Notes under the pieces: generated by a model | What the model saw: only the letters and a program-made list of their open reading frames with translations | Databases searched by the model: none | Told to the model about the DNA's origin: nothing | Made by a program: the position numbers and the translations under genes | Assembly (NCBI RefSeq): GCF_019599505.1 | Contig: NZ_RKLT01000001.1 | Location: 744,001 to 808,000 of the forward strand | Origin: Haloarcula nitratireducens | GTDB lineage: Archaea; Halobacteriota; Halobacteria; Halobacteriales; Haloarculaceae | DNA: 64,000 nt | Reading direction: 5' to 3' | Part shown: positions 17,607 to 59,622 of the stretch, one piece after another | Layout: every line of letters starts with the position of its first letter | Position numbering within the stretch: the first letter of the stretch is position 1

Positions 17607-17616
17607 TATAACAATA
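17607..17616 (+). promoter_or_regulatory. TATAACAATA promoter element
   Basis: One of 13 near-identical elements. TAACAA at 17609-17614 ends 27 nt before the GTG of a 12-codon micro-ORF at 17641 that precedes the DUF457 gene. The flanking ACCCG downstream is shared with the element at 29759-29770. Confidence 0.55.
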
Positions 17617-17640
17617 CCCGAACGCTCCTCAGCGGCTGGC

Positions 17641-17679
17641 GTGAGACAGTCAACTGCAGTCGCGCCGAGAGGTGGATAG
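17641..17679 (+). CDS. Leader micro-ORF (12 codons) before the DUF457 gene
   Basis: GTG at 17641 opens a frame of 12 codons (MRQSTAVAPRGG) that ends with TAG at 17677-17679, three bases before the next ATG. Its start is 27 nt after the TAACAA element, the spacing seen for leaderless starts elsewhere in the window. The peptide has no known domain. It could be a leader or a chance frame; position is the only evidence. Confidence 0.35.
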   Translation: MRQSTAVAPRGG

Positions 17680-17682
17680 CGG

Positions 17683-18252
17683 ATGTGGCCGTGGGAACAC
17701 CTCGCCGTCGGATACCTCGTCTACTCGCTGTACGTTCGCGTCCGCGGACGGGAACGCCCGAGCGGCGTCGACGTCGTCGCCGTCGCCGTCGGTTCGCAGT
17801 TCCCCGACCTCGTCGACAAACCGCTCGGCTGGGGGACGACGCTGTTGCCCTCGGGGACGTCGCTCGCACACTCGCTCCTGTTCGCCGTGCCGATATCGCT
17901 CCTGGTCGTCGCGGTCGCGCGTCGGTACGGCCGCTCCTCGGTGGGCGTCGGGTTCGCGCTCGCGTATCTCGCACACCCGCCGGCCGACGCGGTCTACTCG
18001 TTCGTCCTCGGGGGACACCTCAGGCTCGGCTTCCTGTTCTGGCCGGTGATCCCGGCGCATCCCATGGAGCCGACGGCGATCTTCGCCCGCGCCGGCGAGC
18101 TGTTCGTCGAGTTCGTCGAGATACTCGGCACGCCCGCGGGGCATCGGTTTCTCGCGCTGGAAGCGCTGTTGCTCGGGGCGACGCTCCTCCTGTGGCGGGC
18201 CGACGGGTGGCCCGGTCTCGACCTGCTTCGACCGCGCGCGAACAGTCGGTAG
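17683..18252 (+). CDS. Membrane-bound metal-dependent hydrolase (DUF457 / YbcI-like)
   Basis: 189 residues with about five helices. The family's scattered metal ligands are visible: His6 in PWEHLAVGY, Asp in GSQFPDLVDKP, His in TSLAHSLLF and His/Asp in YLAHPPADA. The family includes YbcI (formerly YdjM/YbcI), membrane proteins proposed to be metal-dependent hydrolases, without a firm substrate. The gene is preceded by a CCATAACAAWG-class element and a micro-ORF, which it shares with glycan genes to the right, so a role in the envelope is plausible by context. Confidence 0.8.
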   Translation: MWPWEHLAVGYLVYSLYVRVRGRERPSGVDVVAVAVGSQFPDLVDKPLGWGTTLLPSGTSLAHSLLFAVPISLLVVAVARRYGRSSVGVGFALAYLAHPPADAVYSFVLGGHLRLGFLFWPVIPAHPMEPTAIFARAGELFVEFVEILGTPAGHRFLALEALLLGATLLLWRADGWPGLDLLRPRANSR

Positions 18253-21060: not shown

Positions 21061-21417
21061 GTGACCTCCGATCTCGCCGCGAACGTCGGATTCGTTCGGG
21101 ACTCCCGGCTGCGATACGACCACGTTCTCTGGGGTGTCGTGTTGGGTGCATCGAGCGCCGACGTCGTCCTGACGCTCGTTGGGCTATCGCTGTGTTTCAG
21201 CGAGGCGAACCCGGTCGCGAGAGCGATCCTCGACGTCGCGGGCGGCGTCGGGTTACTGGCCCTGAAGGCCGCTGCGCTGGGCGTGTTGTTCGCGGTCTGT
21301 CGCCGCCTCGATACGACCTATCGGTACGCGGCGCTGCTCGCGTTCTCGCTGCCGCAACTGTACGCCGTGGGCCACAATGGGTTGTTGCTGGCCCGCTACG
21401 CTCACCTCTGCGGTTAG
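21061..21417 (+). CDS. DUF5658 family membrane protein
   Basis: 118 residues from GTG at 21061, with about four helices. DHVLWGVVLGASSADVVLTLVGL and the SEANPVARAILD motif after the first helix are typical of haloarchaeal DUF5658 proteins; GLLALKAAAL follows. Function is unknown. TTATACG at 21017-21023 is a plausible TATA box, slightly far for a strictly leaderless start. A TTG at 21004 could extend the frame but would precede the predicted transcript start. The gene overlaps the convergent next gene by 4 nt. Confidence 0.65.
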   Translation: MTSDLAANVGFVRDSRLRYDHVLWGVVLGASSADVVLTLVGLSLCFSEANPVARAILDVAGGVGLLALKAAALGVLFAVCRRLDTTYRYAALLAFSLPQLYAVGHNGLLLARYAHLCG

Positions 21418-21944
21418 GTGCGTTCGTCGGCGAGTATCTGTGAGGGTAGCTCGCTGGGCGTGCGCGCTTCGAGGTACGCGATCGCGTCGTCGGGCGTGCA
21501 GGCGACGCCGTCTATCAGACTGGGGAAGACGCCGACCAGTTCGTCCTCGGCGTACAGCGCGATACAGCAGTGCGGCGGGACGATACGTCGGAACGACTCG
21601 TCCGTGACGCTGGACGTCACCTTCGAGATACGGAAGAACGGCGAGATGGAGACGTCCGTCTTCGCGGCCAGCTCGTAGAACTCGCTGATCGCGGCCGCGA
21701 TTCGCTCGCCGGCCCCGACCTCCGCGAGCGGGCCGCCGGTCGCGACGCTGTCGCCCCAGACATGCAGATCGATGTCTACGAGCTCGCCGTCCGCGACGAG
21801 TGCCCTGAGTCGTTCGACCAGGGTATCTTGCTTCTCTTTGCACCCCACGGGCGCGAGAGAGTGGACGAACACCTCGACACGAAGATCTGTTTCGTTGGAG
21901 GGCAACAGCCCATCGAGGTGTTCGTGGGTCTCACCTGAACTCAT
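21414..21944 (-). CDS. Conserved haloarchaeal protein, HTH-domain-like family
   Basis: 176 residues starting MSSGETHEHLDG. The LRVEVFVHSLAPVGCKEKQD segment, the HVWGDSV strand and ISPFFRISKV resemble a family of about 180-residue haloarchaeal soluble proteins that are often annotated only as HTH-domain or hypothetical. An alpha/beta fold is likely; no catalytic motif is visible. TATTTAATACC at 21984-21972 on this strand is 28 nt upstream of the ATG at 21944, supporting a leaderless start. Function unknown. Confidence 0.65.
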   Translation of the reverse strand: MSSGETHEHLDGLLPSNETDLRVEVFVHSLAPVGCKEKQDTLVERLRALVADGELVDIDLHVWGDSVATGGPLAEVGAGERIAAAISEFYELAAKTDVSISPFFRISKVTSSVTDESFRRIVPPHCCIALYAEDELVGVFPSLIDGVACTPDDAIAYLEARTPSELPSQILADERT

Positions 21945-21984: not shown

Positions 21985-22337
21985 ACACAGCCTTTTCGGG
22001 GCTAAGAAACTCTTACGAACGTTCTCCCCGAAACTCCCGGACGAGTCGCATTGGGGGAGAGCGGACAGCGCAGTTCGGACGACGACGGCCGCCGTCGCGT
22101 GGCCTGAGTGGGGGGTGGGGTGGGTGAGTTGGCAAGGGATGGACCGGTTGGCCAGTACGTGCAGTGTCGCTCTCCCCGCGTTCTGACTGCAGGGGCTAGT
22201 TGTATTGTTATTCCCTGGTTAGCGTCGGTAGGCAGTCGTTCGTCCGCCGGACGAGGCGAACCGTTTCGCTCGAATGTCGAACCCGGAAACGCGGGAAGAC
22301 GACGTATAACTACTGCCCCGTCGTGTGTGTATCCGAC
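21985..22337. other. Intergenic region, no gene recognised
   Basis: Reading frames here lack haloarchaeal amino-acid bias. The right end contains GTATAACTA (22304-22312), which fits the promoter of the small membrane protein that starts at 22338 or 22341. Otherwise I see nothing. Confidence 0.5.
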
Positions 22338-22483: not shown

Positions 22484-22843
22484 ATGTCGCCTGAGGACGA
22501 CGAATCGCCGCTCCGTGACGGGGACAGCGAGACGGGGTTGCTCCCCGATGCCGACGCCATCGAACTGCTCGCCTCCAGGCGACGGCGGACCCTGTTGGGG
22601 CTGCTCGTCGACGCCGACGGGGCCGTTACGCTGGGGTCGCTCGCGACGGCCATCGCACAGACCGAGCGAGCGTCCGGTCTCGGTGCGACGCCGAGCCATC
22701 GGATCGCCGTCTCGCTCCATCACGCACACCTCCCGAAGCTCGACGCCGCAGGCGTCGTCGATTACGACCGCGAGACGAACAGCGTCCGGTACCGCGGCGA
22801 CGAGCGGATCGAGACGTGGCTCGCCGCTATCGACGAATCCTGA
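22484..22843 (+). CDS. Soluble DUF7344-type winged-helix protein
   Basis: 119 residues, a divergent DUF7344 domain without membrane helices: AIELLASRRRRTLLGLLVDAD, then a longer loop (SGLGATP) and HRIAVSLHHAHLPKLDAAGV, ending VDYDRETNSVRYRG. It corresponds to the KRVYVSLYQxHLPK core of the other copies. It could be a DNA-binding regulator; its convergent neighbour is a FemAB-like gene at the left edge of the glycan island. Confidence 0.8.
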   Translation: MSPEDDESPLRDGDSETGLLPDADAIELLASRRRRTLLGLLVDADGAVTLGSLATAIAQTERASGLGATPSHRIAVSLHHAHLPKLDAAGVVDYDRETNSVRYRGDERIETWLAAIDES

Positions 22844-23908: not shown

Positions 23909-24018
23909 CTGTCGGCCAGAAAGTGGCCGCCCCGGGGGGTAAGTTATACCCAGCCTACGGCGGCGACGTGTGCGGTAGTCTATCGGTCCCAAGCCGACTG
24001 AGGGCGGTGGTATGCTCG

Positions 24019-24030
24019 GTATAACAAAGC
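24019..24030 (+). promoter_or_regulatory. GTATAACAAAGC promoter element
   Basis: One of 13 near-identical elements. TAACAA at 24022-24027 is 33 nt before the ATG of the micro-ORF at 24060 and 95 nt before the DUF1616 start. The divergent element TAACTT at 23946-23941 serves the FemAB side. Confidence 0.55.
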
Positions 24031-28576: not shown

Positions 28577-28588
28577 GCTTTGTTATGG
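28577..28588 (-). promoter_or_regulatory. CCATAACAAAGC promoter element
   Basis: Matches the full consensus. It points at the PKD/CARDB protein gene; TAACAA (28585-28580) is 59 nt before its ATG at 28521. No start codon occurs at the usual 28-nt spacing, so a leader of roughly 30 nt is expected here. Confidence 0.5.
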
Positions 28589-28624
28589 AGCGCCGTCGCC
28601 GCGACTCGCTCCGGTAACGACCGC

Positions 28625-29758: not shown

Positions 29759-29770
29759 GTATTGTTATAG
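29759..29770 (-). promoter_or_regulatory. CTATAACAATAC promoter element
   Basis: Minus-strand element; TAACAA at 29767-29762 begins the 28-nt spacing to the ATG at 29734 and so behaves like a TATA box for a leaderless mRNA. The downstream ACCCG matches the element at 17607. Confidence 0.6.
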
Positions 29771-29887
29771 GCGCTGTGTGGGCCGGTAATCGGAATTTAC
29801 CACCGGTAGCGGCGGGCGTAAGGCCGCCGTACGCCGGCGAACGTCGCCGAAACAGCCGCCGGGCGTCCGGCCGTCTCCGCAAGCCGA

Positions 29888-29899
29888 CCATAACAATGC
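29888..29899 (+). promoter_or_regulatory. CCATAACAATGC promoter element
   Basis: Full consensus match pointing right, 24 nt before the ATG of the 14-codon micro-ORF at 29920 and about 70 nt before the GT2 gene. It is divergent from the element at 29759, 118 nt away. Confidence 0.6.
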
Positions 29900-31012: not shown

Positions 31013-31063
31013 AGCGGCTCGATAGCCCGGACGAACAGAGCGGCCTTACTCCCTGTACGGCCA

Positions 31064-31075
31064 CTATAACAATTC
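31064..31075 (+). promoter_or_regulatory. CTATAACAATTC promoter element
   Basis: TAACAA at 31067-31072 lies 26 nt before the ATG at 31098. This favours ATG 31098 over the in-frame GTG at 31092 for the beta-helix lipoprotein. Confidence 0.55.
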
Positions 31076-34173: not shown

Positions 34174-34185
34174 GCTTTGTTATCG
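34174..34185 (-). promoter_or_regulatory. CGATAACAAAGC promoter element
   Basis: Minus strand; TAACAA at 34182-34177 is 28 nt before the ATG of the phosphatase-fold gene at 34149, the TATA-box position for a leaderless mRNA. Confidence 0.6.
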
Positions 34186-34346
34186 AAGCCTTACCGACAG
34201 TTCGTTTGGGCTACGTGACGGTTACTATGCCAGATGGAACAGAAAATAATTCCTTCATAGGATATAATACGTGTGTGGCGACGTTCGCTGAATTAAGCCC
34301 CCCTTTCGAGGAACCAAGAGCAGGTGGTAAGGAGGCTGTACTCGTT

Positions 34347-41077: not shown

Positions 41078-41089
41078 CCATAACAAAGC
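41078..41089 (+). promoter_or_regulatory. CCATAACAAAGC promoter element
   Basis: Full consensus match upstream of the eight-gene plus-strand operon starting with the acyltransferase. TAACAA ends 37 nt before the micro-ORF ATG at 41123 and 101 nt before the acyltransferase ATG. Confidence 0.6.
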
Positions 41090-41122: not shown

Positions 41123-41194
41123 ATGACCGGCTCCGACAGTCGCGGCCAGCCAGTGACGCACCGACAGCCCGAACGGAGGTATCTCGATGAGTAA
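41123..41194 (+). CDS. Leader micro-ORF (23 codons) overlapping the acyltransferase start
   Basis: ATG at 41123 opens a frame starting MTGSDSRGQPVTHRQ, 23 codons, with TAA at 41192-41194, eight bases into the acyltransferase gene. It is the first start codon after the CCATAACAAAGC element. Hydrophilic peptide, no domain; the overlap suggests coupling. Confidence 0.5.
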   Translation: MTGSDSRGQPVTHRQPERRYLDE

Positions 41195-44528: not shown

Positions 44529-44564
44529 CCAATACCCTTCCATAGCGACTCGGAGTCGAGCAAC

Positions 44565-46519: not shown

Positions 46520-46551
46520 ACGGAAAGAGACCCATACCACGCACAACCAGA

Positions 46552-46563
46552 CCATAACAATGC
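46552..46563 (+). promoter_or_regulatory. CCATAACAATGC promoter element
   Basis: Full consensus match in the only sizeable gap of this run of genes. TAACAA at 46555-46560 is 38 nt before the ATG at 46598, so an internal promoter for the membrane protein and flippase is likely. Confidence 0.55.
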
Positions 46564-46597
46564 CCGAACACTTCACAGCAGGGGTCAGATAGCCGAA

Positions 46598-48469
46598 ATG
46601 TCACCGAATAGACGCCGTCACGTCGCCGTCCTCCTCGTCGGCTTCCTCGCCTACACGATCGGCGTGTGGTTCGCCGCACAGAAACAGCCGACCGGGTACG
46701 AGATATCGATATACAGAGCGACGCCGATCGCGTTCTGGGCGGGCGTCGCCGTCGCGTTCGTCGCCGCCGTCCTCGTCGGCCTGAACGCGCCGACGGGAAC
46801 GCTCCGAAACCGCCTCGCGCTCCTGCTGGGGACGCTCGTCGGCATCTCGATGGCGGCGCTCCCGACGATACGGGACTACTACTACTACGGTCTCGGCGAC
46901 GCCCTCTCCTATCTCGGCTGGACGCGGATGATCGCCGAGGGGACGATGAACCCCGTGAACTTCCTCTATCCGGGCATCCACAGCACCGCCGTCGTGTTGA
47001 CCTCGGTAACGGGGCTCGAACCGCGCCGGACGCTCCAGCTCGTGATGGTGTTCTTCATCGCGCTGTACATCCTGTTCACGGGCCTGTGCGTGGCACGGCT
47101 CGCCGCCCGGTCGAACGCGCTCGCCGTCGGCGTCTTCTTCGCGCTCCTGTTCCTGCCCATCAACAACATCCACACCTACATCTTCCCCTACCCGACGAGC
47201 GCCGCCATCTTCTTCACGCCCTTCGCGCTGTACCTCGTGCTCCGATACCTCGGCGACGACAGTTCGCTGTTCTCCGTCGCCGGCCGGCGCGTCCTGACCC
47301 CGCTCGGTCTCCTATTGATGTTCGCCGGCATCAGCGCCATCCTCATTCACCCGCAGTCCGGGTCGAACGTGCTGTTCGTCATCGCCGCCGGGTTCGGGTT
47401 GCAGGTGCTCGCCGGTCTCTACGAGATATGGGACGAGCGCAGGAATCGAGCGTCGCTCTCCACCATCTACGACCGGGCGGGGACGCGGTACACGAGCCAT
47501 CGCTCGCTCGCGCCCCAGGCCGTCGTCGTCGGGCTGTTCTTCGCGCTGTGGACGCCTCGGTTCGACCGGGCCACGGGGACGATGGGAACCGTCGTCAGCG
47601 GCCTGTTATACGGGGCGAACCCGGCCGACGAGATATCCACCTCCGCGAGCTCGCTCGACGCGATCGGCAGCGGTATCGGCGTCCTCTTCGCCAAGATATT
47701 CCTCGTCAGCGCCGTCCTCTCGCTGGTCGCCGGTCTGGTGATGCTGGCGGCGCTCTCCGGTCGACTCGACGACCGCTATCCCGACCGCAACGCGCTGTTG
47801 CGGTACGTCACCTTCGGGTTCGTTCCCGTGTTCATGCTGTTCGGTATCTTCTTCGTCACGAGCGTCACCCGCCAGCCGTTCCGCTATCTCGGATTCATGA
47901 TGGTGTTCGTGACCGTCCTGACGGCAGTGGCGGTCTCCGACGGCATCCCGTTCGGCCTCTCCTTCTCTTCGGACAACTGGCGGGCCGCCGTCGCGGTGGT
48001 GCTGGTCCTGCTGTTGATCCCGCAGGCGCTGATTCTCCACCAGTCGCCGCACATGTACAAGACCTCCGACCACGTCCCCGAGACGTACATGGAGGGCCAC
48101 GTCACCACCTTCGAGAACCGCGACCCGTCGGTGTGGTTCGCCGGCCCGCGCGGCGGGCCGCGCCGCTACGTCGACGCCTACTACGGGACGACCTACTCCG
48201 ACTACACGCCGTCCGGCGAGCACTTCCCCGGCAAGGAGGACAAGATACCCTTCGCCGTCTTCGGAACGAACACGACGAGTCACTACTCCCACTGCCGGTA
48301 CGTTCCGCTGACCTCGCGCGACTACGAGAAGGAGGTCGGGCTGTACGACGGGTTCCGCTACTCCGCGGAGGACTTCCGGAACTTCCGGCAGAACCCCGAC
48401 GTCTACCGCGTCCAGTCGAACGGCGACTACCGCCTCTACTTCGTCAGAGGTGAGGACTGCCTTCGATGA
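46598..48469 (+). CDS. Polytopic membrane protein, possible Wzy-like polymerase or GT-C glycosyltransferase
   Basis: 623 residues with about 12-13 helices over residues 8-480, then a soluble C-terminal part of about 140 residues. An early outside loop, RDYYYYGLGDALSYLGWTRM, has Asp and aromatic residues as in GT-C enzymes. Another stretch, FPINNIHTYIFPYPTSAAIFF (spread over a helix), is unusual. The layout is compatible with an O-antigen polymerase-like or GT-C transferase acting on a lipid-linked sugar outside. The family is not recognised with certainty. It overlaps the flippase gene by 4 nt. Confidence 0.6.
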   Translation: MSPNRRRHVAVLLVGFLAYTIGVWFAAQKQPTGYEISIYRATPIAFWAGVAVAFVAAVLVGLNAPTGTLRNRLALLLGTLVGISMAALPTIRDYYYYGLGDALSYLGWTRMIAEGTMNPVNFLYPGIHSTAVVLTSVTGLEPRRTLQLVMVFFIALYILFTGLCVARLAARSNALAVGVFFALLFLPINNIHTYIFPYPTSAAIFFTPFALYLVLRYLGDDSSLFSVAGRRVLTPLGLLLMFAGISAILIHPQSGSNVLFVIAAGFGLQVLAGLYEIWDERRNRASLSTIYDRAGTRYTSHRSLAPQAVVVGLFFALWTPRFDRATGTMGTVVSGLLYGANPADEISTSASSLDAIGSGIGVLFAKIFLVSAVLSLVAGLVMLAALSGRLDDRYPDRNALLRYVTFGFVPVFMLFGIFFVTSVTRQPFRYLGFMMVFVTVLTAVAVSDGIPFGLSFSSDNWRAAVAVVLVLLLIPQALILHQSPHMYKTSDHVPETYMEGHVTTFENRDPSVWFAGPRGGPRRYVDAYYGTTYSDYTPSGEHFPGKEDKIPFAVFGTNTTSHYSHCRYVPLTSRDYEKEVGLYDGFRYSAEDFRNFRQNPDVYRVQSNGDYRLYFVRGEDCLR

Positions 48470-49935
48470 GCATCCAGGAGCGCATCGCCACGGGGTTCAA
48501 GGCGACACTCGCGGCGCGCGTCGTTCACGCGCTCGCGAACGGGGCGCTCCTGCTCGTTCTGACGCGCTACCTCCTCGACCCCGCCCAGTACGGCCTGCTC
48601 TACTTCGCCATCTCTGTCGTCGGCGTCGCGGAGCTGTTCGGGACGCTCGGCGTCCCGAAGGCGACGGCCCGCTACGTCAACGAGTACGTGGAGCGGGACG
48701 CGACACAGGTCCGCTACATACTCCGATCGTCGCTCGCCGTCATCACGGGTATCGCCGTCGCCGTCGCACTGGTCTTCACGCTGGCCAGCGACCTCATCGC
48801 GTCGTTGCTCGGGCGACCGGAGGCCGCGCCGCTGCTGGCCATCGGCGGCTTCTACGTCGTCGGTCGCTCGCTCTTCGGCTACCTGAAGTCGGCCTTTCAA
48901 GCGTTCAACCGTGTCACCTACAGCGCCGTTTTGACCAGCATCAACAGCGTCGTGCGGTTGCTGACCGCCGCCGGACTGGTCGCGCTTGGTCACGGCATCG
49001 CCGGGGCGATGACCGGCTACGTCGTCGGCTTCTTCGTCACCGTCGTCGTCGGACTCGGTCTCCTGTACGTCCGGTTCTACCGGACGCTGCCGACCGACGG
49101 GTCGATAGAACCCGACCTCAGAAGCCGGCTGCTCCGGTACAGCGTCCCGACGGCGGCGACGCGAGCGAGCGTCGTCGTCGACAGCAAGATGGACACCGTC
49201 CTCGTCGGCGTGCTCGCGACGCCGGCAGCCGTGGGCTTCTACACGCTCGCCCGCCAGATAGCCGATCTCTGTATCGCCCCCGCGCAGTCGCTCGGATTCA
49301 CTATCACGCCCACGCTGGGCGAACAGTCCGCCGCCGAGAACCGCGATCGAGCGGGCGACATCTACGCCACGTCGCTCCGGAACGTCCTCCTGCTGTACGT
49401 GCCCGCGGCGTTCGGCCTCGCCGTCGTCGCCGAACCGACCGTCCGGTACGTCGTCGGTTCCGACTACCTCGGCGCGGTGCCGCTGATCCGACTCTACGGT
49501 CTCTTCGTCGTCGTTCGGGCGGTCCACAAGATTACCGGTTCCGCCCTCGACTACCTCGGACTGGCCCGCGTCCGCGCCATCGCCAGGGGCGTCAGCGCCG
49601 CCTGTAACGTCGGCCTGAACATCCTCCTCATCCCGCCGCTCGGCGCGCTCGGGGCCGGGATCGCGACGGTGATAACGTACTCCGCGTACACGCTGGTCAA
49701 CGTCTACTACATCCACCGCGAGCTCCCCTTCGAGGCGACGGCGATCGGCAGTCACCTCGCGCGCGTCCTCGCCATCGCCGCCGTCATGGCCGGGGCCGTG
49801 ATGACGGTGATGCCCCACGTCTCCGGCCTCCTCACGCTCGCGGGGGCCATCGTCGTCGGCGGCGGCGTCTGGGCCGGACTCTCCGTCGCCAGCGGCCTGC
49901 TCAAGCCCCGCGCCGTCCTCGCCTTCATGAGCTGA
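48466..49935 (+). CDS. Oligosaccharide flippase (Wzx-like)
   Basis: 489 residues, about 14 helices; ATG at 48466 overlaps the previous stop (ATGA). RIATGFKATLAARVVHALANGALL opens the first helix; LLRYSVPTAATRASVVVDSKMDTVLVG is a typical Wzx central region; SALDYLGLARVRAIARGVSAACN follows. It should flip the lipid-linked unit assembled by the adjacent transferases. Pairing with the large membrane protein resembles Wzx/Wzy gene pairs. It is only distantly similar to the flippase at 1121. Confidence 0.9.
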   Translation: MSIQERIATGFKATLAARVVHALANGALLLVLTRYLLDPAQYGLLYFAISVVGVAELFGTLGVPKATARYVNEYVERDATQVRYILRSSLAVITGIAVAVALVFTLASDLIASLLGRPEAAPLLAIGGFYVVGRSLFGYLKSAFQAFNRVTYSAVLTSINSVVRLLTAAGLVALGHGIAGAMTGYVVGFFVTVVVGLGLLYVRFYRTLPTDGSIEPDLRSRLLRYSVPTAATRASVVVDSKMDTVLVGVLATPAAVGFYTLARQIADLCIAPAQSLGFTITPTLGEQSAAENRDRAGDIYATSLRNVLLLYVPAAFGLAVVAEPTVRYVVGSDYLGAVPLIRLYGLFVVVRAVHKITGSALDYLGLARVRAIARGVSAACNVGLNILLIPPLGALGAGIATVITYSAYTLVNVYYIHRELPFEATAIGSHLARVLAIAAVMAGAVMTVMPHVSGLLTLAGAIVVGGGVWAGLSVASGLLKPRAVLAFMS

Positions 49936-49994
49936 GAGCCGAGAGCTGAATGGGCGGTCGGCGCGATCGGCGACGACTGTCGCCACAGGGACTC

Positions 49995-50002
49995 TATAAC
50001 TA
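49995..50002 (+). promoter_or_regulatory. Variant promoter element (TATAACTA)
   Basis: TAACTA at 49997-50002, 27 nt before the ATG of the formyltransferase gene at 50029. Same position as the consensus TAACAA elements. Confidence 0.45.
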
Positions 50003-50028
50003 CACCGGCCTTGCGACTAGAACCGGCC

Positions 50029-50886
50029 ATGCCATCAGTCGCGTTCATGGGGAGCCACCCCCTCGGCGAACGATGCCTCGAACTGCTCACCGACGACGAC
50101 GCCTTCGACGTGGAACTGGTCGTCACCTACGGTCCCGACGAGGAGACGTGGTGGGACGGCTGCCTGTACGACACCGCCGAGTCACTCGGGCACGCCGTCG
50201 TCACGCGCGAGGACGAGCGGGACGTGCTCGACCTCGACATCGACTACCTGCTCTCGGTCTACTACCCGAACATCCTCGGCGAGGAACTGCTCGACCACCC
50301 GAACGTCGCGCCGCTGAACCTCCACCAGGCGGAACTGCCGCGCTACCGCGGGAGCAACGTCTTCAGTCACGCCATCCTGAACGCCCGCGAAGACGACCAC
50401 TGGCAGTACGGCACCACGTTCCACGTCATGGCTCCGGAGGTCGACGCCGGCGACGTCGTCGCCCGCGCGTTCGTCCCCATCCGCGAGAGCGATACCGCCC
50501 GCACGCTGTACGACCGCGTCACCGAGAAGTCCGTCGAACTGTTCCGCGAACAGCTCCCGACGATGCGGGAGAAGCGCGTCCGCGAGCTGGCGACCCCACA
50601 GTCTGAGTTCGACGGCGAGCGGTACTTCTACACCAAGCAGAGCCTCGACGGCGAGAAGGAGATCCCGACCGAGCGACTGGCGGCGACCGACGAGGCCACG
50701 CAGCTCGAAGTGTACGACAAGATCCGCGCGCTCGACTTCCCGCCGTTCCAGCCCGCCTACACGACACTCGGCGGTCACCGCGTCCAGTTGACCGCCACGT
50801 CCTACGAGGACCTCTTCGAGGACGCGCCGGTCCCTGACTTCGAGGTCGACGCGCCCGAGGAGTCGACGCCGCTCGCACAGGACTGA
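50029..50886 (+). CDS. Formyltransferase family protein, probably nucleotide-sugar N-formyltransferase
   Basis: 285 residues from ATG at 50029. The fold of methionyl-tRNA formyltransferase is evident: Rossmann start VAFMGSHPLGERCLELL, the catalytic Asn97, His99 in PLNLHQAELPRYRG and Asp142 in VMAPEVDAGDVVA. The substrate groove and C-terminal part resemble sugar formyltransferases that use N10-formyl-THF to formylate UDP- or TDP-amino sugars. The neighbouring DegT aminotransferase and Gfo/Idh/MocA genes on the other strand make an N-formylated amino sugar the likely product. Confidence 0.8.
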   Translation: MPSVAFMGSHPLGERCLELLTDDDAFDVELVVTYGPDEETWWDGCLYDTAESLGHAVVTREDERDVLDLDIDYLLSVYYPNILGEELLDHPNVAPLNLHQAELPRYRGSNVFSHAILNAREDDHWQYGTTFHVMAPEVDAGDVVARAFVPIRESDTARTLYDRVTEKSVELFREQLPTMREKRVRELATPQSEFDGERYFYTKQSLDGEKEIPTERLAATDEATQLEVYDKIRALDFPPFQPAYTTLGGHRVQLTATSYEDLFEDAPVPDFEVDAPEESTPLAQD

Positions 50887-50959
50887 CGGCGCGAGCGCTC
50901 CAAGAACCGAGTGGCAAAGCAGAATCAGCTTCGTTCGAACGATACCGAAGAGCGCCGCG

Positions 50960-51964
50960 TCAGGGCTGTTGCACCATCGGCGGCTGTTCGACGTCCACGA
51001 CGATGTCCTCCGCGTCCGAGCGCTCGACGCGTTCCAGCGTCTCGACGGCGCGGGCTCCGACCGCGCCGCTCGCGGGCGGCTGAGTCCCGTTCTCGCTGGC
51101 CTCGACGAACGACTCGACCTCGAACTTCAGCGGTTCGCGCTCCTCGGCCGTGTGAGTGATGGAGCCGTCATTGCGGGAGTTCAGCCCGTCGTGCGGGTCC
51201 GAGAACACCTCGGCGTCGAACAGTTCGAGTTTCGTGTTCTCCAAGTAGTCGATGTACGCCGAGCGGTTCGACCCGACGACGACGAGGTCGCGGGTCTTAT
51301 CGAACACCGGGATCTGCCACGAGGAGTTGACGACGCCGGTGGTGTCGCCGTAGCCCAGCGTTATCGTCGCCGTCTCGGTGATCCCCTCGCGGACGAACGA
51401 GTCTAGTTGCCCGTGGACGGTGTCGGGCCGGCTGTCGAGTAAGTAGTCGTAGATGTCCACGTCGTGGACGGCCAGCGAGTAGACCACGCCCGTCGTCGTC
51501 CGCGGGACGCGGAACGAGAAGCGGCGGGTCTGGAGGTACTTGATGCGCCCGAGCTCGCCGCGGTCGATGCGGCGTTTCAGCGCCCGCAGCGCCGGGTGGT
51601 AGCGGAAGATGTGACCCACGCCGAGCGTGCAGTCGTTGTCCTCGGCCGTCGTGACGAGTTCCCACGCCTCCTCGCTGGTCAGCGCCAGCGGCTTCTCGAC
51701 GAGGAGGTCGATGCCGCGGTTCAGCATCGCGTCGCCGATGGCCGGGTGGGTCGTCGAGGGCGTCGCCACCGTCGCGGCGTCGACGTCTAAGTCGTCGACG
51801 TCGGTGACGTACGGCAGGTCGTAGGTGTCGGCCAGCGACTCGACGCGGCTCTCGTCGACGTCGCAGATGACCACTTCGTCCAGTCGCCCGTCGTCAAGCA
51901 GTTCCTTGGCGACCCTGACGTGGTTCTTCCCCCAGTAGCCCGTGCCGACGACGCCGTACCTCAT
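50960..51964 (-). CDS. Gfo/Idh/MocA oxidoreductase (WlbA-like sugar dehydrogenase)
   Basis: 334 residues from ATG at 51964, overlapping the aminotransferase stop (ATGA). MRYGVVGTGYWGKNHVRVAK is the Rossmann start, EKPLALTSEEAWELV the family motif and GHIFRYHPALRALK the active-site region with His. With the DegT gene before it, the pair matches the order oxidation at C3 then transamination used to make 3-amino sugars in Pseudomonas (WbpB/WbpE) and Bordetella (WlbA/WlbC). Substrate inferred only. Confidence 0.85.
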   Translation of the reverse strand: MRYGVVGTGYWGKNHVRVAKELLDDGRLDEVVICDVDESRVESLADTYDLPYVTDVDDLDVDAATVATPSTTHPAIGDAMLNRGIDLLVEKPLALTSEEAWELVTTAEDNDCTLGVGHIFRYHPALRALKRRIDRGELGRIKYLQTRRFSFRVPRTTTGVVYSLAVHDVDIYDYLLDSRPDTVHGQLDSFVREGITETATITLGYGDTTGVVNSSWQIPVFDKTRDLVVVGSNRSAYIDYLENTKLELFDAEVFSDPHDGLNSRNDGSITHTAEEREPLKFEVESFVEASENGTQPPASGAVGARAVETLERVERSDAEDIVVDVEQPPMVQQP

Positions 51965-53061
51965 TCGTAGTACCCCCGTATCTCGGCGGCGACGCGGTCG
52001 ATCTCCTCGCCGGTGATGCGGGGGTGCATCGGGAGCGAGACGATGCGCTCGCTGAGTTCCTCGGTCACGGGCAGCGAGGGGATCTCGTCCAGCGCCTCCC
52101 GCATCGCCGGCGTCCGGTGGACCGGCGGGTCGTAGTGGACGCCGGTCTGGATCCCCTGCTCGTCGAGGTGCGCGCGCAGACCCTCCCGGTCGGGGACCTG
52201 CACGACGTACAGGTGATAGACGTGAGTCGCGTCGTCCATCCGCACCGGCAGTTCGACGGCGTCGACGTCGGCCAGTCGCTCGTCGTAACGCTCCGCGGCG
52301 GCCGCCCGCTCCGCGTTCCAGTCGGCTAAGTGCGAGAGCTGTTCGATGCCGGCGGCGGCGCTCGTCTCGTTCATGCGGTGGTTCAGGCCGATTCGGACGT
52401 GATTGCCATCGCCGTCGCGACCGTGGTTGCGCAGCTCGCGGGCCGCGCGCGCGAGGTCCGCGTCGTCCGTGACCAGGATGCCGCCGTCCCCGGCGACGGT
52501 CATGTTCTTCGACGGGTAGAAGCTGAAACACCCCGCGTCGCCGAGACTCCCCGTGGGGTCCCCGCGGTAAGTCGCGCCGTGAGCCTGACAGGAGTCTTCG
52601 ATAACCGTCAGGTCGTGCGCGTCGGCGACGCCGTGAATCGCGTCCATCGCCGCCGGTTGGCCGTAGAGGTGGACCGGGACGGCGGCTTCGGGGTTCTCTG
52701 CGTCCTCGGCCTTCTCGGCGAGGTCGGTCCCGCTCATGGTGTACGTCTGCGGGTCGACGTCGACGAAGACCGGGTTCGCACCCAGTTCGACGACGGGGCT
52801 GACCGTCGCGAAGAACGTGTGGGCGGGCACCAGCACGTCGTCGCCGGGGCCGATGCCGGCGGCTTTCATAGTCAGGTACAGCGCGGCGGTACCGCTGCTG
52901 ACGCCGACCGCGTGGTCGACGCCGCAGGTGTCCGCGAACTGCGCTTCGAGTTCCTCGACGCGCGGTCCTTTGACGTATCGCCGCGATTCGATCGTCTCCA
53001 CCACCCTCTCGACGATGGCGTCGTCGACGTAGACGTCTGTGAACGGGACTTGCTCCGTCAT
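51961..53061 (-). CDS. DegT/DnrJ/EryC1/StrS sugar aminotransferase
   Basis: 366 residues, PLP-dependent fold type I. SSGTAALYLTMKAAG forms the phosphate-binding region, VIEDSCQAHGATYRG supplies the Asp and Gln that hold the cofactor, and FSFYPSKNMTVAGDGG contains the PLP lysine at about 185. The second half has the HDGRDGDGNHVRIGLNHRM-type loop found in this family. It aminates a keto nucleotide sugar. TAACAA of its promoter element ends 28 nt upstream of the ATG. First gene of a two-gene operon with the Gfo/Idh/MocA gene. Confidence 0.95.
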   Translation of the reverse strand: MTEQVPFTDVYVDDAIVERVVETIESRRYVKGPRVEELEAQFADTCGVDHAVGVSSGTAALYLTMKAAGIGPGDDVLVPAHTFFATVSPVVELGANPVFVDVDPQTYTMSGTDLAEKAEDAENPEAAVPVHLYGQPAAMDAIHGVADAHDLTVIEDSCQAHGATYRGDPTGSLGDAGCFSFYPSKNMTVAGDGGILVTDDADLARAARELRNHGRDGDGNHVRIGLNHRMNETSAAAGIEQLSHLADWNAERAAAAERYDERLADVDAVELPVRMDDATHVYHLYVVQVPDREGLRAHLDEQGIQTGVHYDPPVHRTPAMREALDEIPSLPVTEELSERIVSLPMHPRITGEEIDRVAAEIRGYYE

Positions 53062-53085
53062 CGGACTCGGGTTGTCGAGAGATAC

Positions 53086-53097
53086 CCATTGTTATAC
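53086..53097 (-). promoter_or_regulatory. GTATAACAATGG promoter element
   Basis: Minus strand; TAACAA at 53094-53089 is 28 nt before the aminotransferase ATG at 53061. Confidence 0.6.
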
Positions 53098-53195
53098 TCC
53101 GCGTTCGCGCGCACGCACGGTTCTCGACTCACCGGCTGGCGGCGGGGAGAGCGGCTCTCGTGTCGTAGGCGGTCCCAACGGCGGGTTCGCCACCG

Positions 53196-53203
53196 CATAA
53201 CTT
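53196..53203 (+). promoter_or_regulatory. Variant promoter element (CATAACTT)
   Basis: TAACTT at 53198-53203, 30 nt before the epimerase ATG at 53233. Divergent from the element at 53086. Confidence 0.4.
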
Positions 53204-53232
53204 ACCGCCGAAGGGGAGTGGGACCCGAGAAG

Positions 53233-54156
53233 ATGGCACTGGAGTCAGTCAGCGACCGGCGAGTGCTCGTCACCGGCGGCGCGGGGTTCGTCGGGAGCCA
53301 CCTCGTCGCCGCGCTCGCACCGACGAACGACGTGACCGTCCTGGACGACTTCTCGACGGGCGCGCGGGACCACCTCCCCGAGGACGTCACGGTCGTCGAG
53401 GGCGACGTCAGAGACGAGTCCGTCGTCGACGAGGCGATGGCGGGCGTCGACGTCGTCTTCCACGAGGCGGCGATGGTCAGCGTGCCCGAGTCAGTCGAGC
53501 GGCCGGTGGACTGCCACCGGCTGAACGGCGGGGCGACGGTCGGCGTCCTCGACTGCGCGCGCCGGCACGACGCCCGGGTCGTCCTCGCGTCCAGCGCCGC
53601 CGTCTACGGGACGCCGGAGAAGGTCCCCGTCGAGGAGGGCGACGCGCTGTCGCCCGCCTCGCCGTACGGCTTCGAGAAGCGCTCGAACGAGCAGTACGCG
53701 AGGTTCTACGCGGAGACGTACGGCCTGCCGACCGTGCCGCTCCGGTACTTCAACGTCTACGGGCCGCGCGGCCTCGACGGGGAGTACGCCGGCGTCATCG
53801 GGACGTTCGTCCGGCAGGCACAGGCCGGCGAGCCGCTGACGGTCGAGGGCGACGGCGAGCAGACCCGCGACTTCGTCTACGTCGGCGACGTGGTCCGGGC
53901 GAACCTGCGGGCGGCGACCACCGACGCGACCGGCCGCCCGTTCAACGTCGGCACCGGCGAGAGCGTCAGTATCAACCACCTCGCCGAGACCGTCCGGGAC
54001 GTGGTGGGTGCCGACGTCCCCATCGAACACGTCCCGCCCCGCGAGGGCGATATCGAGCGAAGCGAGGCGGACGTGACCGTCGCCAGCGACCGACTCGGGT
54101 TCGAAGCCGACGTGGGGCTCCGCGAGGGGCTCGCGTTGACGCTCGCCGAGGACTGA
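53233..54156 (+). CDS. NAD-dependent epimerase/dehydratase (UDP-hexose epimerase-like SDR)
   Basis: 307 residues. VLVTGGAGFVGSHLVAAL carries the NAD-binding G-x-x-G-x-x-G, SSAAVYGTPEKVPVEEG the Ser/Tyr region, and SPYGFEKRSNEQY the catalytic Tyr145 and Lys149. LRYFNVYGPRGLDGEYAGVI and DFVYVGDVVRANL are typical of UDP-glucose or UDP-GlcNAc 4-epimerases. It supplies a galacto-type sugar nucleotide for the island. The start at 53233 is clear; upstream in-frame sequence is shadow of the minus-strand gene. Confidence 0.9.
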   Translation: MALESVSDRRVLVTGGAGFVGSHLVAALAPTNDVTVLDDFSTGARDHLPEDVTVVEGDVRDESVVDEAMAGVDVVFHEAAMVSVPESVERPVDCHRLNGGATVGVLDCARRHDARVVLASSAAVYGTPEKVPVEEGDALSPASPYGFEKRSNEQYARFYAETYGLPTVPLRYFNVYGPRGLDGEYAGVIGTFVRQAQAGEPLTVEGDGEQTRDFVYVGDVVRANLRAATTDATGRPFNVGTGESVSINHLAETVRDVVGADVPIEHVPPREGDIERSEADVTVASDRLGFEADVGLREGLALTLAED

Positions 54157-54789: not shown

Positions 54790-55071
54790 CTACAGCATGT
54801 TCTCCGCTTCGATGGTGTTCCAGACTTCCTGTCCCGAATCGGTGATCCCGTAGACGCGCCCCTTTCGCCGGTCCTCCGAGACGAGTAACGTGACGAGGTC
54901 TCCCTCTTTGAGCTCCTGTAAGGCGCGCGAGACGTGCGCGATGCTCAACCCGGTCTCGTCGGCGATGAGCGAGGGGGTGGCCGGTCCCTCGGCGAGTCGT
55001 TTGAGCGTCTCGACGCGATAGCGCGAGCTGATGACGTAGCTGACGTCGTCCCACGGGTCTGAATCACTCAT
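54790..55071 (-). CDS. Winged-helix transcriptional regulator (MarR/ArsR-like)
   Basis: 93 residues from ATG at 55071: SDPWDDVSYVISSRYRVETL, then LAEGPATPSLIADETGLSIAHVSRALQEL (helix-turn-helix) and a wing GDLVTLLVSEDRRKGRVYGIT. The small single-domain form is common in haloarchaea. No effector domain or Cys pair is visible. It stands between the PEQLLPE small gene and a DUF7344 gene in the regulatory block that interrupts the glycan island. Confidence 0.85.
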   Translation of the reverse strand: MSDSDPWDDVSYVISSRYRVETLKRLAEGPATPSLIADETGLSIAHVSRALQELKEGDLVTLLVSEDRRKGRVYGITDSGQEVWNTIEAENML

Positions 55072-55202: not shown

Positions 55203-55736
55203 TCACGGATCTCTGAGTTCGAGCGGGCGGGCGCGCTGACACCGCCGGTAATCGACGAGCTGTGCCGCGGCGACGACGAGCAACACGACGACGATCGCAC
55301 TCGCCAGCAACAGCGGAGACACGCCGGTCAGTACTGAGATCTCGAACAGCGTCCCGAGAAACAGTCCGCCGACGACCAGCGAGAGCGCGCCGTTGAGTCG
55401 CGACCACGGGAGCGCCGACTGCACCGGACCGAGGTACCGGTCGACTTCGGTGACGGACGGCGTCGCGGCGACGGTGCGCGTCTCCTCGTCGTACCGGACG
55501 AAGCCGGCGCTCTCCAGTTTCGGGATGTGCGTCTGGTACAGCGAGACGTAGACTCGCTTCTGCTCGGCCGAATCGACCGCCGACGGGTCGATGTTCGCCT
55601 CGTGCCCCCCGATCTCTCTGGCGAGCGTGGTCAGTTCCACGGGTTCGTCGCGCTGCCGGAGCGTCGAGATGATGAACCGCCGCCGGTTGTTACTCAACAC
55701 CTCGAACACCGTATCTCGGGCGACCGGCGCTGTCAT
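55203..55736 (-). CDS. DUF7344 winged-helix protein with two membrane helices
   Basis: 177 residues from ATG at 55736. RDTVFEVLSNNRRRFIISTLRQ opens the DUF7344 domain, followed by EQKRVYVSLYQTHIPKLESAGFVRYDEETR. Two helices lie at about 118-138 and 145-165, then a basic tail. It is the same architecture as the gene at 16795. GTAACAAAGGG on the minus strand (55825-55815) upstream resembles the promoter element but is 83 nt from the ATG, so a TTG at 55802 extending the frame is an alternative. Confidence 0.85.
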   Translation of the reverse strand: MTAPVARDTVFEVLSNNRRRFIISTLRQRDEPVELTTLAREIGGHEANIDPSAVDSAEQKRVYVSLYQTHIPKLESAGFVRYDEETRTVAATPSVTEVDRYLGPVQSALPWSRLNGALSLVVGGLFLGTLFEISVLTGVSPLLLASAIVVVLLVVAAAQLVDYRRCQRARPLELRDP

Positions 55737-55962
55737 CGTCCCCTCCGGACGCGTCGACGTGTGCGGAGGTGTCCGTGTCCTGAAGCCACTGTTGAGTGAC
55801 AATCACATGGGCCACCCTTTGTTACGTATTACATATCCGTCGGGCGCGAGACGGTATCCCGGGGGAAACGACACAATACCAACGTAGTTGAAGGAACGTT
55901 CCGACGACGGCGCAAGTACCCCCCGGGGAGGGCGAAATCTACGCCTTCGAGACACAGGACGC

Positions 55963-55974
55963 CCATAACAATGG
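55963..55974 (+). promoter_or_regulatory. CCATAACAATGG promoter element
   Basis: Full core match; TAACAA at 55966-55971 ends 27 nt before the GTG of the micro-ORF at 55998 and 95 nt before the aminotransferase ATG at 56066. Confidence 0.6.
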
Positions 55975-55997
55975 CTATACTTTGCTTGCCCCAAACC

Positions 55998-57169: not shown

Positions 57170-58167
57170 ACACGAGAAATCCGCTCGCCGCCGGCGTCGT
57201 CGGCGTCGGGAGCATGGGAAAGCACCACGCACGCGTGTACAACGAACTCCCCGGCGTCGAACTCGCCGGCGTCGCCGACGCGAACGACGCGGCGGCCGCC
57301 GAGGTCGCCGCCGAGTACGGGACCGGCGTCGCGGACGCGGACGACCTCTTGGAGGTGGTCGACCTCGTCTCCATCGCCGTCCCGACGCGGTTTCACTATC
57401 ACGTCGCCTCGAAGGCCATCGAGGCGGGCACCTCCGTCCTCATCGAGAAGCCCTTCGTCAGCAACCCACAGCACGGCCGCGAGCTCATCCGCCACGCCGA
57501 CGACGTCGGCGTCCAGCTGCAGGTCGGTCACGTTGAGCGGTTCAATCCGGTCGTAGACGTGCTCAAAGACGTCCTCGCCGACGTCGAACCGATCGCCGCC
57601 TCGGCCCGCCGCCTCGGCCCGCCGGTCTCGCGCGACGTCGAGGACGACGTGGTCATCGACCTGATGATACACGACATCGACGTCGTCTGCTCGCTGTTCG
57701 ACGACGACGTGGCGGGCGTCAGCGCTCTCGGCGCGTGCAACGGCGACTACGCCGACGCGCAGATCGAGTTCGCGGACGGCACCGTCTGTTCGCTGACCGC
57801 CAGCCGCATCACGCAGGAACGGATACGAGACCTCTCGGTGACCGCCCGGGAGTGTCACGTCGACGTCGACTTCATGGACCAATCGATGCGCATCTACCGC
57901 CACTCGGACCCGTCCTACCACACGAAAGACGGCGACGTCAGGTACAGCCAGGAGAGCATCATTGAGCGCCCGGCCGTCGAGAGCGACGAACCGCTCAAGC
58001 GTGAACTGCGCTCGTTCGTCGACTGCGTGCGCGAGGGGACGACCCCGCGCATCACCGGCGAGGACGGCCTCCGCGCGCTCTCGATAGCCAACGAGATAAG
58101 CGACCTCGCGTCCGCTCACGAGCTCGAACACAGGGAGGTGAGCGTCAGTGACGGCAGCACGACCTGA
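57166..58167 (+). CDS. Gfo/Idh/MocA oxidoreductase
   Basis: 333 residues; ATG at 57166 overlaps the previous stop by 4 nt. AAGVVGVGSMGKHHARVYNEL (Rossmann; quoted in part), EKPFVSNPQHGRELI and VGHVERFNPVVDVLKD are the family marks. VIDLMIHDIDVVCSLFD supplies the active-site Asp/His segment. It probably oxidises C3 of a UDP-sugar before transamination by the DegT enzyme upstream. Its 3' end overlaps the start of the dehydrogenase gene by 20 nt. Confidence 0.85.
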   Translation: MNTRNPLAAGVVGVGSMGKHHARVYNELPGVELAGVADANDAAAAEVAAEYGTGVADADDLLEVVDLVSIAVPTRFHYHVASKAIEAGTSVLIEKPFVSNPQHGRELIRHADDVGVQLQVGHVERFNPVVDVLKDVLADVEPIAASARRLGPPVSRDVEDDVVIDLMIHDIDVVCSLFDDDVAGVSALGACNGDYADAQIEFADGTVCSLTASRITQERIRDLSVTARECHVDVDFMDQSMRIYRHSDPSYHTKDGDVRYSQESIIERPAVESDEPLKRELRSFVDCVREGTTPRITGEDGLRALSIANEISDLASAHELEHREVSVSDGSTT

Positions 58168-59518
58168 GGGGGCGCTCTACGCCGCCGAGACCGGCGGGTT
58201 GGCGATCCAGGAGGCGTTCGTCGACGGCGAGATTCCGGTCGCCGTCTACGGGCTCGGGAAGATGGGTCTGCCGCTCGCGGCCGTCCTCGCCGACGTGACG
58301 GGGAACGTCACCGGCGTCGACATCGACCCCGAGGTGGTGGACGCGGTCGAAGCGGGCGAGTCCCCCGTCGGCGGCGAACCCGGGCTCTCCGAACTCGTCG
58401 CCGAGACGGCGGCCGACGGGTCGCTGACCGCGAGCGCCGACCCCGCCGCGGCGGCCGAGGGGGCGCGGATGCACGTCCTCATCGTCCCGACGCTGCTGGA
58501 CGAGACGAACGAACCCGACCTCTCGGCGCTGCTCGCGGCCGTCGACGCCGTCGGGGAGGGTCTCGACTCGGGCGATCTCGTCGTCGTCGAGTCGACGGTG
58601 CCGCCGGGGACGACGCGCGACGTGGTCACGCCGCGTCTGGCGGAGCGAAGCGGGCTGGATCCGTCGTCGTTCGGCGTCGCGTTCTGCCCGGAGCGGACCG
58701 CGAGCGGCCGCGCGCTACGGGACATCCGCGGTGCCTACCCGAAGGTCGTCGGCGGCGTCGACGACGAGAGCGAGCGCGTCGCGGGCCTGCTTTACGAGAA
58801 GGTGACGAGCAACGAGGTCATCCGCGTCGGCGACGCGACCACCGCCGAGTGCGTCAAGGTGTTCGAGGGGATCTACCGCGACGTGAACATCGCGCTCGCC
58901 AACGAGCTCGCGCGCGTGACCGACCTGCTGGACGTGGACGTCAACCGGGCCATCGAGGTGGCCAACACCCAGCCGTTCTGTGAGATTCACGACCCCGGAC
59001 CGGGCGTCGGCGGCCACTGCATCCCGCTGTACCCGCACTTCCTCACCTCGCAGGTCGACATCCAGCTGCCGCTCGTCGAGACCGGCAGGTCCGTCAACGA
59101 CGCCATGTCGACGTTCGTCGCCAACGCCGTCGTCAGGTGCCTCGACGACCGTGACGTCGACGTCGCGGACGCGGACGTGTTGCTACTTGGCGTCGCCTAC
59201 CGCGCCGGAGTCGACGAGACGCGCAAGACGCCGGCCCGCCCGATCGCGGATAGGCTCTCGAAACTCGGCGCGTCGGTCTGGGCTACCGACCCGGTCGTGG
59301 ACGTGTCGGGCGTCCCGGAGTTCGACGCGACGCCGCTCGACCACGACGGCATCGAGGACGCCGCCGCGCGCTTCGACGCCGTCGTCCTCGTGACGGCCCA
59401 CGAGGAGTACGAACGCATCGACTACGGCGCGTTCGAGGACGCGGTCGCGGTCGATACGCGGGCGGTCCTCGACGGGGAGTCGCTGCCGGTCTACACGGTC
59501 GGTAGCGGCACGCGATGA
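58148..59518 (+). CDS. UDP-sugar 6-dehydrogenase (WecC/WbpA/AglM type)
   Basis: 456 residues from GTG at 58148. NAD site VAVYGLGKMGLPLAAVLA (31-48), catalytic Cys291 in GPGVGGHCIPLYPHFL, ESTVPPGTTRDVV and CPERTASGRALRDIR are diagnostic. It oxidises a UDP-hexose or UDP-HexNAc to the uronic acid in two steps. VGGHCIPxYP favours the UDP-ManNAc/GlcNAc dehydrogenase group. The first 25 residues are an extra leader overlapping the previous gene; a later start is not obvious. Confidence 0.9.
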   Translation: MTAARPEGALYAAETGGLAIQEAFVDGEIPVAVYGLGKMGLPLAAVLADVTGNVTGVDIDPEVVDAVEAGESPVGGEPGLSELVAETAADGSLTASADPAAAAEGARMHVLIVPTLLDETNEPDLSALLAAVDAVGEGLDSGDLVVVESTVPPGTTRDVVTPRLAERSGLDPSSFGVAFCPERTASGRALRDIRGAYPKVVGGVDDESERVAGLLYEKVTSNEVIRVGDATTAECVKVFEGIYRDVNIALANELARVTDLLDVDVNRAIEVANTQPFCEIHDPGPGVGGHCIPLYPHFLTSQVDIQLPLVETGRSVNDAMSTFVANAVVRCLDDRDVDVADADVLLLGVAYRAGVDETRKTPARPIADRLSKLGASVWATDPVVDVSGVPEFDATPLDHDGIEDAAARFDAVVLVTAHEEYERIDYGAFEDAVAVDTRAVLDGESLPVYTVGSGTR

Positions 59519-59610
59519 GCGCGCCGTTCGATTTTGTCCTGTTAACACATGTCTCGGTAACGAACGCGGCGAACGGGTTCGTAGTTCCCGCCTTATGTGT
59601 AAGAATACTT

Positions 59611-59622
59611 CCATAACAAAGT
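59611..59622 (+). promoter_or_regulatory. CCATAACAAAGT promoter element
   Basis: Full core match. The next gene starts at 59765, 146 nt away, or at an in-frame GTG at 59639, only 20 nt away. This is the one copy without a start at the usual spacing; the DUF7344 gene may have a long leader or a longer protein. Confidence 0.5.

Follow-up and report, generated by a model that had tools for sequence, protein, structure and literature searches.

A 64-kb stretch of the Haloarcula nitratireducens genome (64,000 nucleotides of contig NZ_RKLT01000001.1, 66% GC; the window hereafter) carries a surface-glycan gene cluster whose promoters share a bipartite element, [GA][TC]A-N8-ATAACAAW. The motif was confirmed to be real and more than chance. 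Comparison of sequences revealed the element, its conservation and its concentration in glycan clusters and at a few unlinked surface genes. It also showed that the element keeps a fixed spacing in promoters with long leaders and tends to lie near regulator genes. We hold with moderate confidence that the motif forms the core of a dedicated haloarchaeal surface-glycan promoter class, read with the help of a DUF7344 regulator; judged from these comparisons the regulon appears well supported, and DUF7344 is the favoured candidate reader.

To a scan allowing up to two mismatches, the window presented 18 matches to CCATAACAAWG, as compared with a mean of 3.24 in 100 sequence shuffles (standard deviation 2.03, largest count 10). 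A preliminary description of this DNA had listed 13 copies, of which 12 fit the pattern at the positions claimed; the copy at 17607 reads TATAACAATAC and lies outside the two-mismatch limit, with its core ATAACAA on the plus strand at 17608. Pattern matching reproduced the exact CCATAACAA common to seven copies and the WG continuation in ten, and all 13 are intergenic by our own gene calls, as described. An additional, fourteenth ATAACAAW copy, absent from that list, was found at 22211 on the minus strand. At the genes starting at 29734, 31098, 34149, 38927, and 53061, the ATG follows 32–34 nt after the first A of ATAACAA, and TAACAA thus ends at −28 to −26, in agreement with the proposed TATA-box position. 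Five ATAACT or ATAACC variants with the same upstream A were also present (22306, 23947, 36524, 44525, 49996), so that the boundary to ordinary promoters is not sharp, as had been cautioned. The reversed pattern used as a control is conservative because ATAACAATA nearly repeats itself read backwards: all three reversed ATAACAAW matches in the window overlap true sites.

Housekeeping genes had been said to use different boxes, and this was borne out in the nearest comparison genome, G001 (3.9 Mb, sharing 27% of sampled 31-mers with the window). Among 251 background first genes in 400 kb of G001, the interval −40 to −26 contained TTTA in 44 (peak at −30 to −28), ATAAC in 2, and ATAACAAW in none. 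The corresponding counts for the 25 first genes of the window cluster were 0, 7, and 5. When the interval was extended to 150 nt, TTTA was found at 1 of the 25 cluster genes and 68 of the 251 background genes.

Next, the anatomy of the element. Among 211 ATAACAA sites from 40 cluster loci and the window, 1 was intragenic and 181 were intergenic and within 300 nt 5' of a gene. A logo of 95 non-redundant sites, thinned to <52% flank identity, defined the full bipartite form: A at −9 (87%), T or C at −10 (75%), and G or A at −11 (79%) make up the upstream part, C at −2 (58%) and at −1 (56%) precedes the core, and A or T follows it in 97%. The A at −9 is present in 11 of the 13 listed window sites, and no comparable upstream A was seen in background TTTA promoters (n = 35). 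In long-leader sites (n = 77), counted from the element, A/T occupies +22 in 64% and +23 in 77%, and C at +32 (51%), A/G at +33 (71%), and A at +34 (44%) follow. Haloarchaeal promoters are described with WW at −10 (PMC4983044), from which a start site is expected near +33; transcription is accordingly predicted to start ~33 nt after the first core A. The fixed distance to the −10 AT pair and the start-site signature in these 77 promoters indicates that the element sits where the transcription factor B (TFB) recognition element (BRE) and the TATA box lie, the box at about −33 to −26 by this prediction and the extra A approximately one helical turn upstream. Distances from element to start codon in the wider set peak at 33–35 (25 of 86), as expected for leaderless genes.

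The element is conserved between species. In G001, 5 of 7 exact motif copies fall inside 28 kb, and 14 of 55 ATAACAAW copies lie inside the 43-kb orthologous cluster (binomial ~1e-15, uniform placement assumed). Outside the cluster there are 41 copies, not far from the 32 of the reversed control counted over the whole genome, so that most of the 41 may be chance. Five further Haloarcula-like genomes kept the element at orthologous promoters while the flanks diverged, and even oddities such as CTATAACAATA at the Gfo/Idh gene were retained; in distant genomes (54–64% protein identity) the Gfo/Idh promoter has CCATAACAATG at an unchanged distance. The window phosphodiesterase is 92% identical to its Haloarcula amylovorans homologue. 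When upstream 7-mers were ranked de novo in 25 cluster genomes, most of them picked for exact motif copies, ATAACAA came first in 16 and among the top three in 19, and was outside the top nine in 6 (G005, G016, G017, G021, G066, G076). In the six genomes fetched regardless of motif it ranked first in three (G023, G028, G029) and not in G016, G017, or G021.

A wider set of 80 loci from many haloarchaeal genera, each with a relative of the cluster phosphodiesterase, contained 115 bipartite sites (none intragenic by our gene calls) versus 0 reversed ones. Their spread was uneven: 29 loci had at least two sites, and 34 long loci had none. Multi-site loci were richer than no-site loci in FemAB/GNAT (25 vs 4), hexapeptide transferase (18 vs 1), DUF1616 (16 vs 1), Gfo/Idh (13 vs 1), and DegT (12 vs 1) genes, with protein-cluster names taken from the window orthologue or assigned by eye. 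The element therefore marks one glycan-cluster type, not every phosphodiesterase locus. ATAACAAW copies were also found in the glycan stretch of Haloarcula marismortui pNG700. On this replicon and on Halorientalis pHOS100 (L179/L180), RdfA and SMC-related genes are situated near the DUF7344 gene. Among the matches listed, a conserved bipartite pair ~1.5 kb apart in G008 (C35:279767 and 281328) lies away from the genes of both candidate regulators (DUF7344 and PF25213, see below), and pairs like it occur in G010, G011, G015, and G020.

The cluster, 17.6–60.4 kb in the window, encodes glycosyltransferases, a flippase, sugar-modifying Gfo/Idh and DegT enzymes, epimerase, UDP-sugar dehydrogenase, formyltransferase, polysaccharide deacetylase, FemAB/GNAT and hexapeptide transferases, and a PKD-domain surface protein; one protein of the 41187–54156 run is weakly similar, below cut-off, to the deacetylase VimE. 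Two divergent site pairs are unlinked to the G001 cluster (C1:731.6 kb and C2:105 kb), each between a polysaccharide deacetylase gene (E 3e-20 and 4e-21) and a gene for a secreted-type or PKD-domain protein, and G019 has a similar unlinked pair, judged from protein starts. A single cis-element is thus enriched at functionally related unlinked genes (the G001 cluster and the two deacetylase loci). Together with the conservation between species, its presence at these deacetylase genes upholds the glycan regulon of the preliminary description. Two more G001 sites stand 34 nt before genes named by eye as MoxR-like ATPase and metallo-beta-lactamase-fold, and three other inspected G001 sites (L183, L185, L033) had no gene at a telling distance. 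Non-glycan targets exist: downstream of the site at 38962 are a DUF1326 gene and a PpoB2 gene (copper chaperone family). Of the loci compared, the window, G001, and G009 are the only ones with this pair (37472–38927) and the motif in front of it, as though the two genes were a recent insertion that had acquired the promoter.

We then considered which protein might read the element. Regulators of three families kept appearing: DUF7344, PF25213 (54790), and PF20575 (21414). The window has five DUF7344 genes, four of them with two hydrophobic C-terminal stretches read by eye. The protein encoded at 16807–17331 matched the PF24035 domain with 113.3 bits (cut-off 27.8) and is a probable winged helix, to which sub-cut-off hints point (ArsR/SmtB, 2e-4; DUF6293_C, 0.006); sequence searches of the PDB gave no useful relative, with 1uly_A at E 0.46 only. 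It is 100% identical in G001, and neighbour proteins are 88–97% identical. DUF7344 was detected in at least 131 of 146 family genomes at E 1e-22. Co-location was counted for listed motif copies (genomes up to G131) against the best listed DUF7344 match per genome, with the expectation taken from uniform placement in 3.9 Mb. Among the matches listed, 70 of 138 exact motif copies (3.5 expected) lay no more than 50 kb from the best DUF7344 match, an exact copy was near it in 35 of 64 genomes (3.4 expected), and 18 of 19 motif clusters had a DUF7344 gene within 60 kb. The sole exception, G005, is a fragmented assembly in which another copy lies 1.6 kb from its DUF7344 gene. A DUF7344 gene was inside the locus (10-kb flanks) at 17 of 29 motif-positive versus 3 of 34 motif-negative loci. 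One comparison of motif-positive and motif-negative loci is circular for the motif, which defined the groups, and was not used as evidence. Over the 146 family genomes, at the cut-offs used and with no control for genome completeness, motif and control counts were 650 vs 192 in the 79 genomes with both DUF7344 and PF25213, 46 vs 17 in the 10 with DUF7344 only, 22 vs 6 in the 6 with PF25213 only, and 80 vs 65 in the 51 with neither.

Several observations weigh against DUF7344 as the reader of one uniform promoter class. Each genome has several DUF7344 paralogues. Among the matches listed, 29 of the 64 genomes had no exact copy near the best DUF7344 match; at least seven of these (G008, G010, G011, G014, G015, G018, G020) have a relaxed copy 0.6–0.9 kb from DUF7344. 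G107 (3 vs 3) and G116 (0 vs 5), with DUF7344 of like strength and no PF25213, showed no motif excess, and the copies in G064 are scattered. PF25213 co-locates as tightly with the motif (70 of 133 copies) and is often near DUF7344, making the two hard to separate. Counts from related genomes are not independent, and since whole clusters are inherited together and relatives were counted separately, every co-location figure is inflated. Finally, the AT pair at +22/+23 was not seen in leaderless-type sites (n = 14; A/T 29% and 43%), which speaks against one uniform −10 signal.

In the mechanism we propose, [GA][TC]A-N8-ATAACAAW at about −44 to −26 would replace the ordinary CGAAA (BRE) and TTWT (TATA). 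The ATAACAAW box would be a poor TATA/BRE, so that transcription would depend on an assisting factor, for which the cluster's own DUF7344 winged-helix protein (16807–17331) is the most likely candidate. This protein could bind across both element parts on one helix face and recruit TFB and the TATA-binding protein (TBP), and its membrane helices, read by eye, might couple expression of the glycan genes to envelope state. Possible partners are the PF25213 winged helix and the PF20575 protein. In its strongest form, with membrane-anchored DUF7344 acting as an archaeal promoter-specificity factor that uses GTA-N8-ATAACAAW instead of BRE/TATA to run an envelope-responsive, class-wide surface-polysaccharide regulon, the proposal is speculative. 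If true, DUF7344 would roughly correspond, in archaea, to an envelope-stress sigma factor.

A doubtful competitor is that the 93-aa PF25213 winged helix binds the element itself, with DUF7344 as its sensor partner. PF25213 is highly conserved (53–98% identity, 85 genomes), often has one match per genome, near DUF7344 and the motif, and its presence tracks the motif excess about equally well (Spearman 0.60 vs 0.61 for DUF7344). Against it, four genomes without a PF25213 match at 1e-15 (G051, G053, G054, G055) have, among the matches listed, 6–9 bipartite sites on the contig of the best DUF7344 match, and the predicted recognition helix differs (IAAVSHAL vs IAHVSRAL) in the Halorubrum/Halobellus loci L127, L141, and L174, where the motif is unchanged. 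A 40-kb stretch of Haloferax mediterranei has only two ATAACAAW sites, one 85 nt before a DUF7344 homologue (41% identity) and the other 92 nt before a sugar nucleotidyltransferase gene. It is because of these four genomes and the Haloferax mediterranei sites that we favour DUF7344 over PF25213. A PadR gene next to the Haloferax mediterranei homologue had initially looked PF25213-like, but it aligned poorly and was dropped.

We give equally little credence to the element being an operator, at which a bound repressor would block a weak TATA box, keeping the glycan genes off until its release. Archaeal repressors often bind over the core promoter; the element does overlap the core promoter, and the sign of regulation is not readable from sequence. 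The rarity of TTTA within 150 nt of the cluster genes argues the other way, as the unaided promoter would be weak.

That a particular TFB/TBP pair reads the element directly, as a variant form of BRE/TATA and unaided by any further regulator, is improbable; a regulator of the DUF7344 (or PF25213) family is more likely. The preliminary description had offered such a pair or an added regulator; its shared element at the core-promoter position, marking a glycan regulon, stands, and of the two readers the added regulator fits better, given the DUF7344 gene near 18 of the 19 motif clusters. The BRE/TATA position and the fixed spacing in long-leader promoters would suit a TFB/TBP pair, and each of six genomes searched had 8–17 PF08271 zinc-ribbon matches (E ≤0.001, some below cut-off). 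Only in G115 were two of these on the glycan-cluster contig (C17:13823 and 16670); in the other five (G001, G009, G019, G063, G081) the nearest were >100 kb off or on other contigs. The constant A at −9 lies upstream of the usual BRE, and the motif excess tracks DUF7344 and PF25213, both of which further disfavour the TFB/TBP pair. Chance, base composition, or promoter copying by recent gene duplication can be dismissed: AT-rich words are rarer inside GC-rich genes, which makes intergenic placement alone weak evidence, but the shuffles, the reversed controls, the 95 sites with <52% flank identity, and the conservation across genera contradict it.

PF20575 (HTH_63), whose gene lies at the cluster edge, was rejected as the binding factor: no clear helix-turn-helix was seen by eye, and none turned up in the 20-kb stretches of G066 and G067. 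Loci from 22 of 25 cluster genomes contained a relative, several of these loci having been selected for PF20575, and PF20575 may be a partner only. The member at 21414–21944 belongs to a family named for a helix-turn-helix, yet by eye is an acidic alpha/beta protein; the gene itself is preceded by an ordinary ATTTAATA promoter box. A TrmB-like gene at 2608 was discarded as a regulator, because the loci initially retrieved around the cluster contained no homologue. Two ARAGORN tRNA calls (Ala, Asp; 22608–22703 and 24511–24606) lie within predicted protein-coding genes and are probably spurious.

Table 1. Element sites, variants, and candidate regulator genes in the window (first A, first core A; distances in nt).
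Feature	Coordinates	Strand	Remarks
DUF7344 paralogue	15880..16380	-	one of the five DUF7344 genes of the window
DUF7344 protein, favoured candidate reader	16807..17331	+	probable winged helix; two hydrophobic C-terminal stretches (by eye)
Bipartite element GTA-N8-ATAACAAT	17597..17616	+	5' of YdjM-like gene 17683; equivalent site in G001
PF20575 (HTH_63) protein	21414..21944	-	cluster edge; start shifted to upstream ATG
14th ATAACAAT copy	22203..22222	-	267 nt 5' of PF20575 gene; −9 = A, −11 = C
Variant ATAACTA, A at −9	22295..22314	+	178 nt 5' of short DUF7344 gene 22484
Short DUF7344 protein	22484..22843	+	without hydrophobic C-terminus
Variant ATAACTT, A at −9	23939..23958	-	5' of FemAB/GNAT gene 22854–23855; also in 5 genomes
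Element	24010..24029	+	5' of DUF1616 gene
Element without A at −9	28578..28597	-	5' of PKD-domain surface protein gene 25780–28521
Element	29760..29779	-	Gfo/Idh/MocA gene; first A 34 before ATG; kept in place in 8 other genomes
Element	29879..29898	+	5' of GT2 gene 29966
Element	31055..31074	+	gene 31098 (no Pfam match above cut-off); first A 32 before ATG
Element	34175..34194	-	type I phosphodiesterase gene; first A 34 before ATG
Variant ATAACTA	36513..36532	+	5' of BKACE gene
Element without A at −9	38952..38971	-	DUF1326 gene (non-glycan); first A 33 before ATG
Element	41069..41088	+	5' of gene run 41187–46519, first gene hexapeptide transferase
Glycan genes	41187..54156		hexapeptide transferase, DUF354, FemAB/GNAT, glycosyltransferase, flippase, formyltransferase, Gfo/Idh, DegT, epimerase
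Variant ATAACCA	44514..44533	+	FemAB/GNAT gene, 40 before ATG
Element	46543..46562	+	gene 46598 (623 aa, no Pfam match), then flippase gene; first A 44 before ATG
Variant ATAACTA	49985..50004	+	5' of formyltransferase gene
Element	53087..53106	-	DegT aminotransferase gene; first A 34 before ATG
PF25213 winged helix, 93 aa, second candidate reader	54790..55071	-	53–98% identical in 85 of 146 family genomes (E <1e-27)
DUF7344 paralogue	55203..55709	-	beside PF25213
Element	55954..55973	+	5' of gene run DegT, Gfo/Idh, UDP-sugar dehydrogenase
Element	59602..59621	+	5' of DUF7344 gene, ATG at 59765
DUF7344 paralogue	59765..60394	+	element in front

To our knowledge, little is established about the control of haloarchaeal surface polysaccharides. 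No earlier report of the element (TATAACAA or ATAACAA) in haloarchaea was found in the literature searched, outside which most subscription papers lie, nor was one found there for HVO_A0261 or for haloarchaeal glycan and polysaccharide regulation; no paper on DUF7344 was found there either. The proposal is directly testable, since the motif is defined to the single base, the start site is predicted, the targets are listed, and two candidate regulators are named; DUF7344 gains a first concrete functional hypothesis. Should the regulon be defined by the identity of the core promoter and not by a distant operator, this would bear on promoter selectivity in archaea.

Among known systems, the Bat-dependent bop promoters of Halobacterium combine an upstream element with a non-standard TATA box in a small regulon; their sequence, regulator family, and genes all differ from the present ones. 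The ordinary haloarchaeal promoter, described with BRE CGAAA, TATA TTWT, and WW at −10 (PMC4983044), resembles the element promoters in box position, leaderless genes, and the −10 AT pair (in the long-leader subset here), and differs in that ATAACAAW stands for the TATA-like box, with an extra A ~10 bp upstream, and mostly at one gene class. CsmR of Haloferax volcanii is likewise a haloarchaeal regulator with a defined site near BRE/TATA, but that site is the semi-palindrome TATCA-N4-TGATA (PMC13286277), whereas the present element is not palindromic. The nearest mechanism found in the literature searched is that of EarA of Methanococcus maripaludis, which acts at the weak-BRE archaellum promoter (PMC5512572, PMC13286277). 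By description EarA is a winged-helix regulator thought to aid TFB at the weak core promoter of a surface structure, as we propose for DUF7344; organism, target, and site are different, and here ~14 promoters share one element that overlaps the box.

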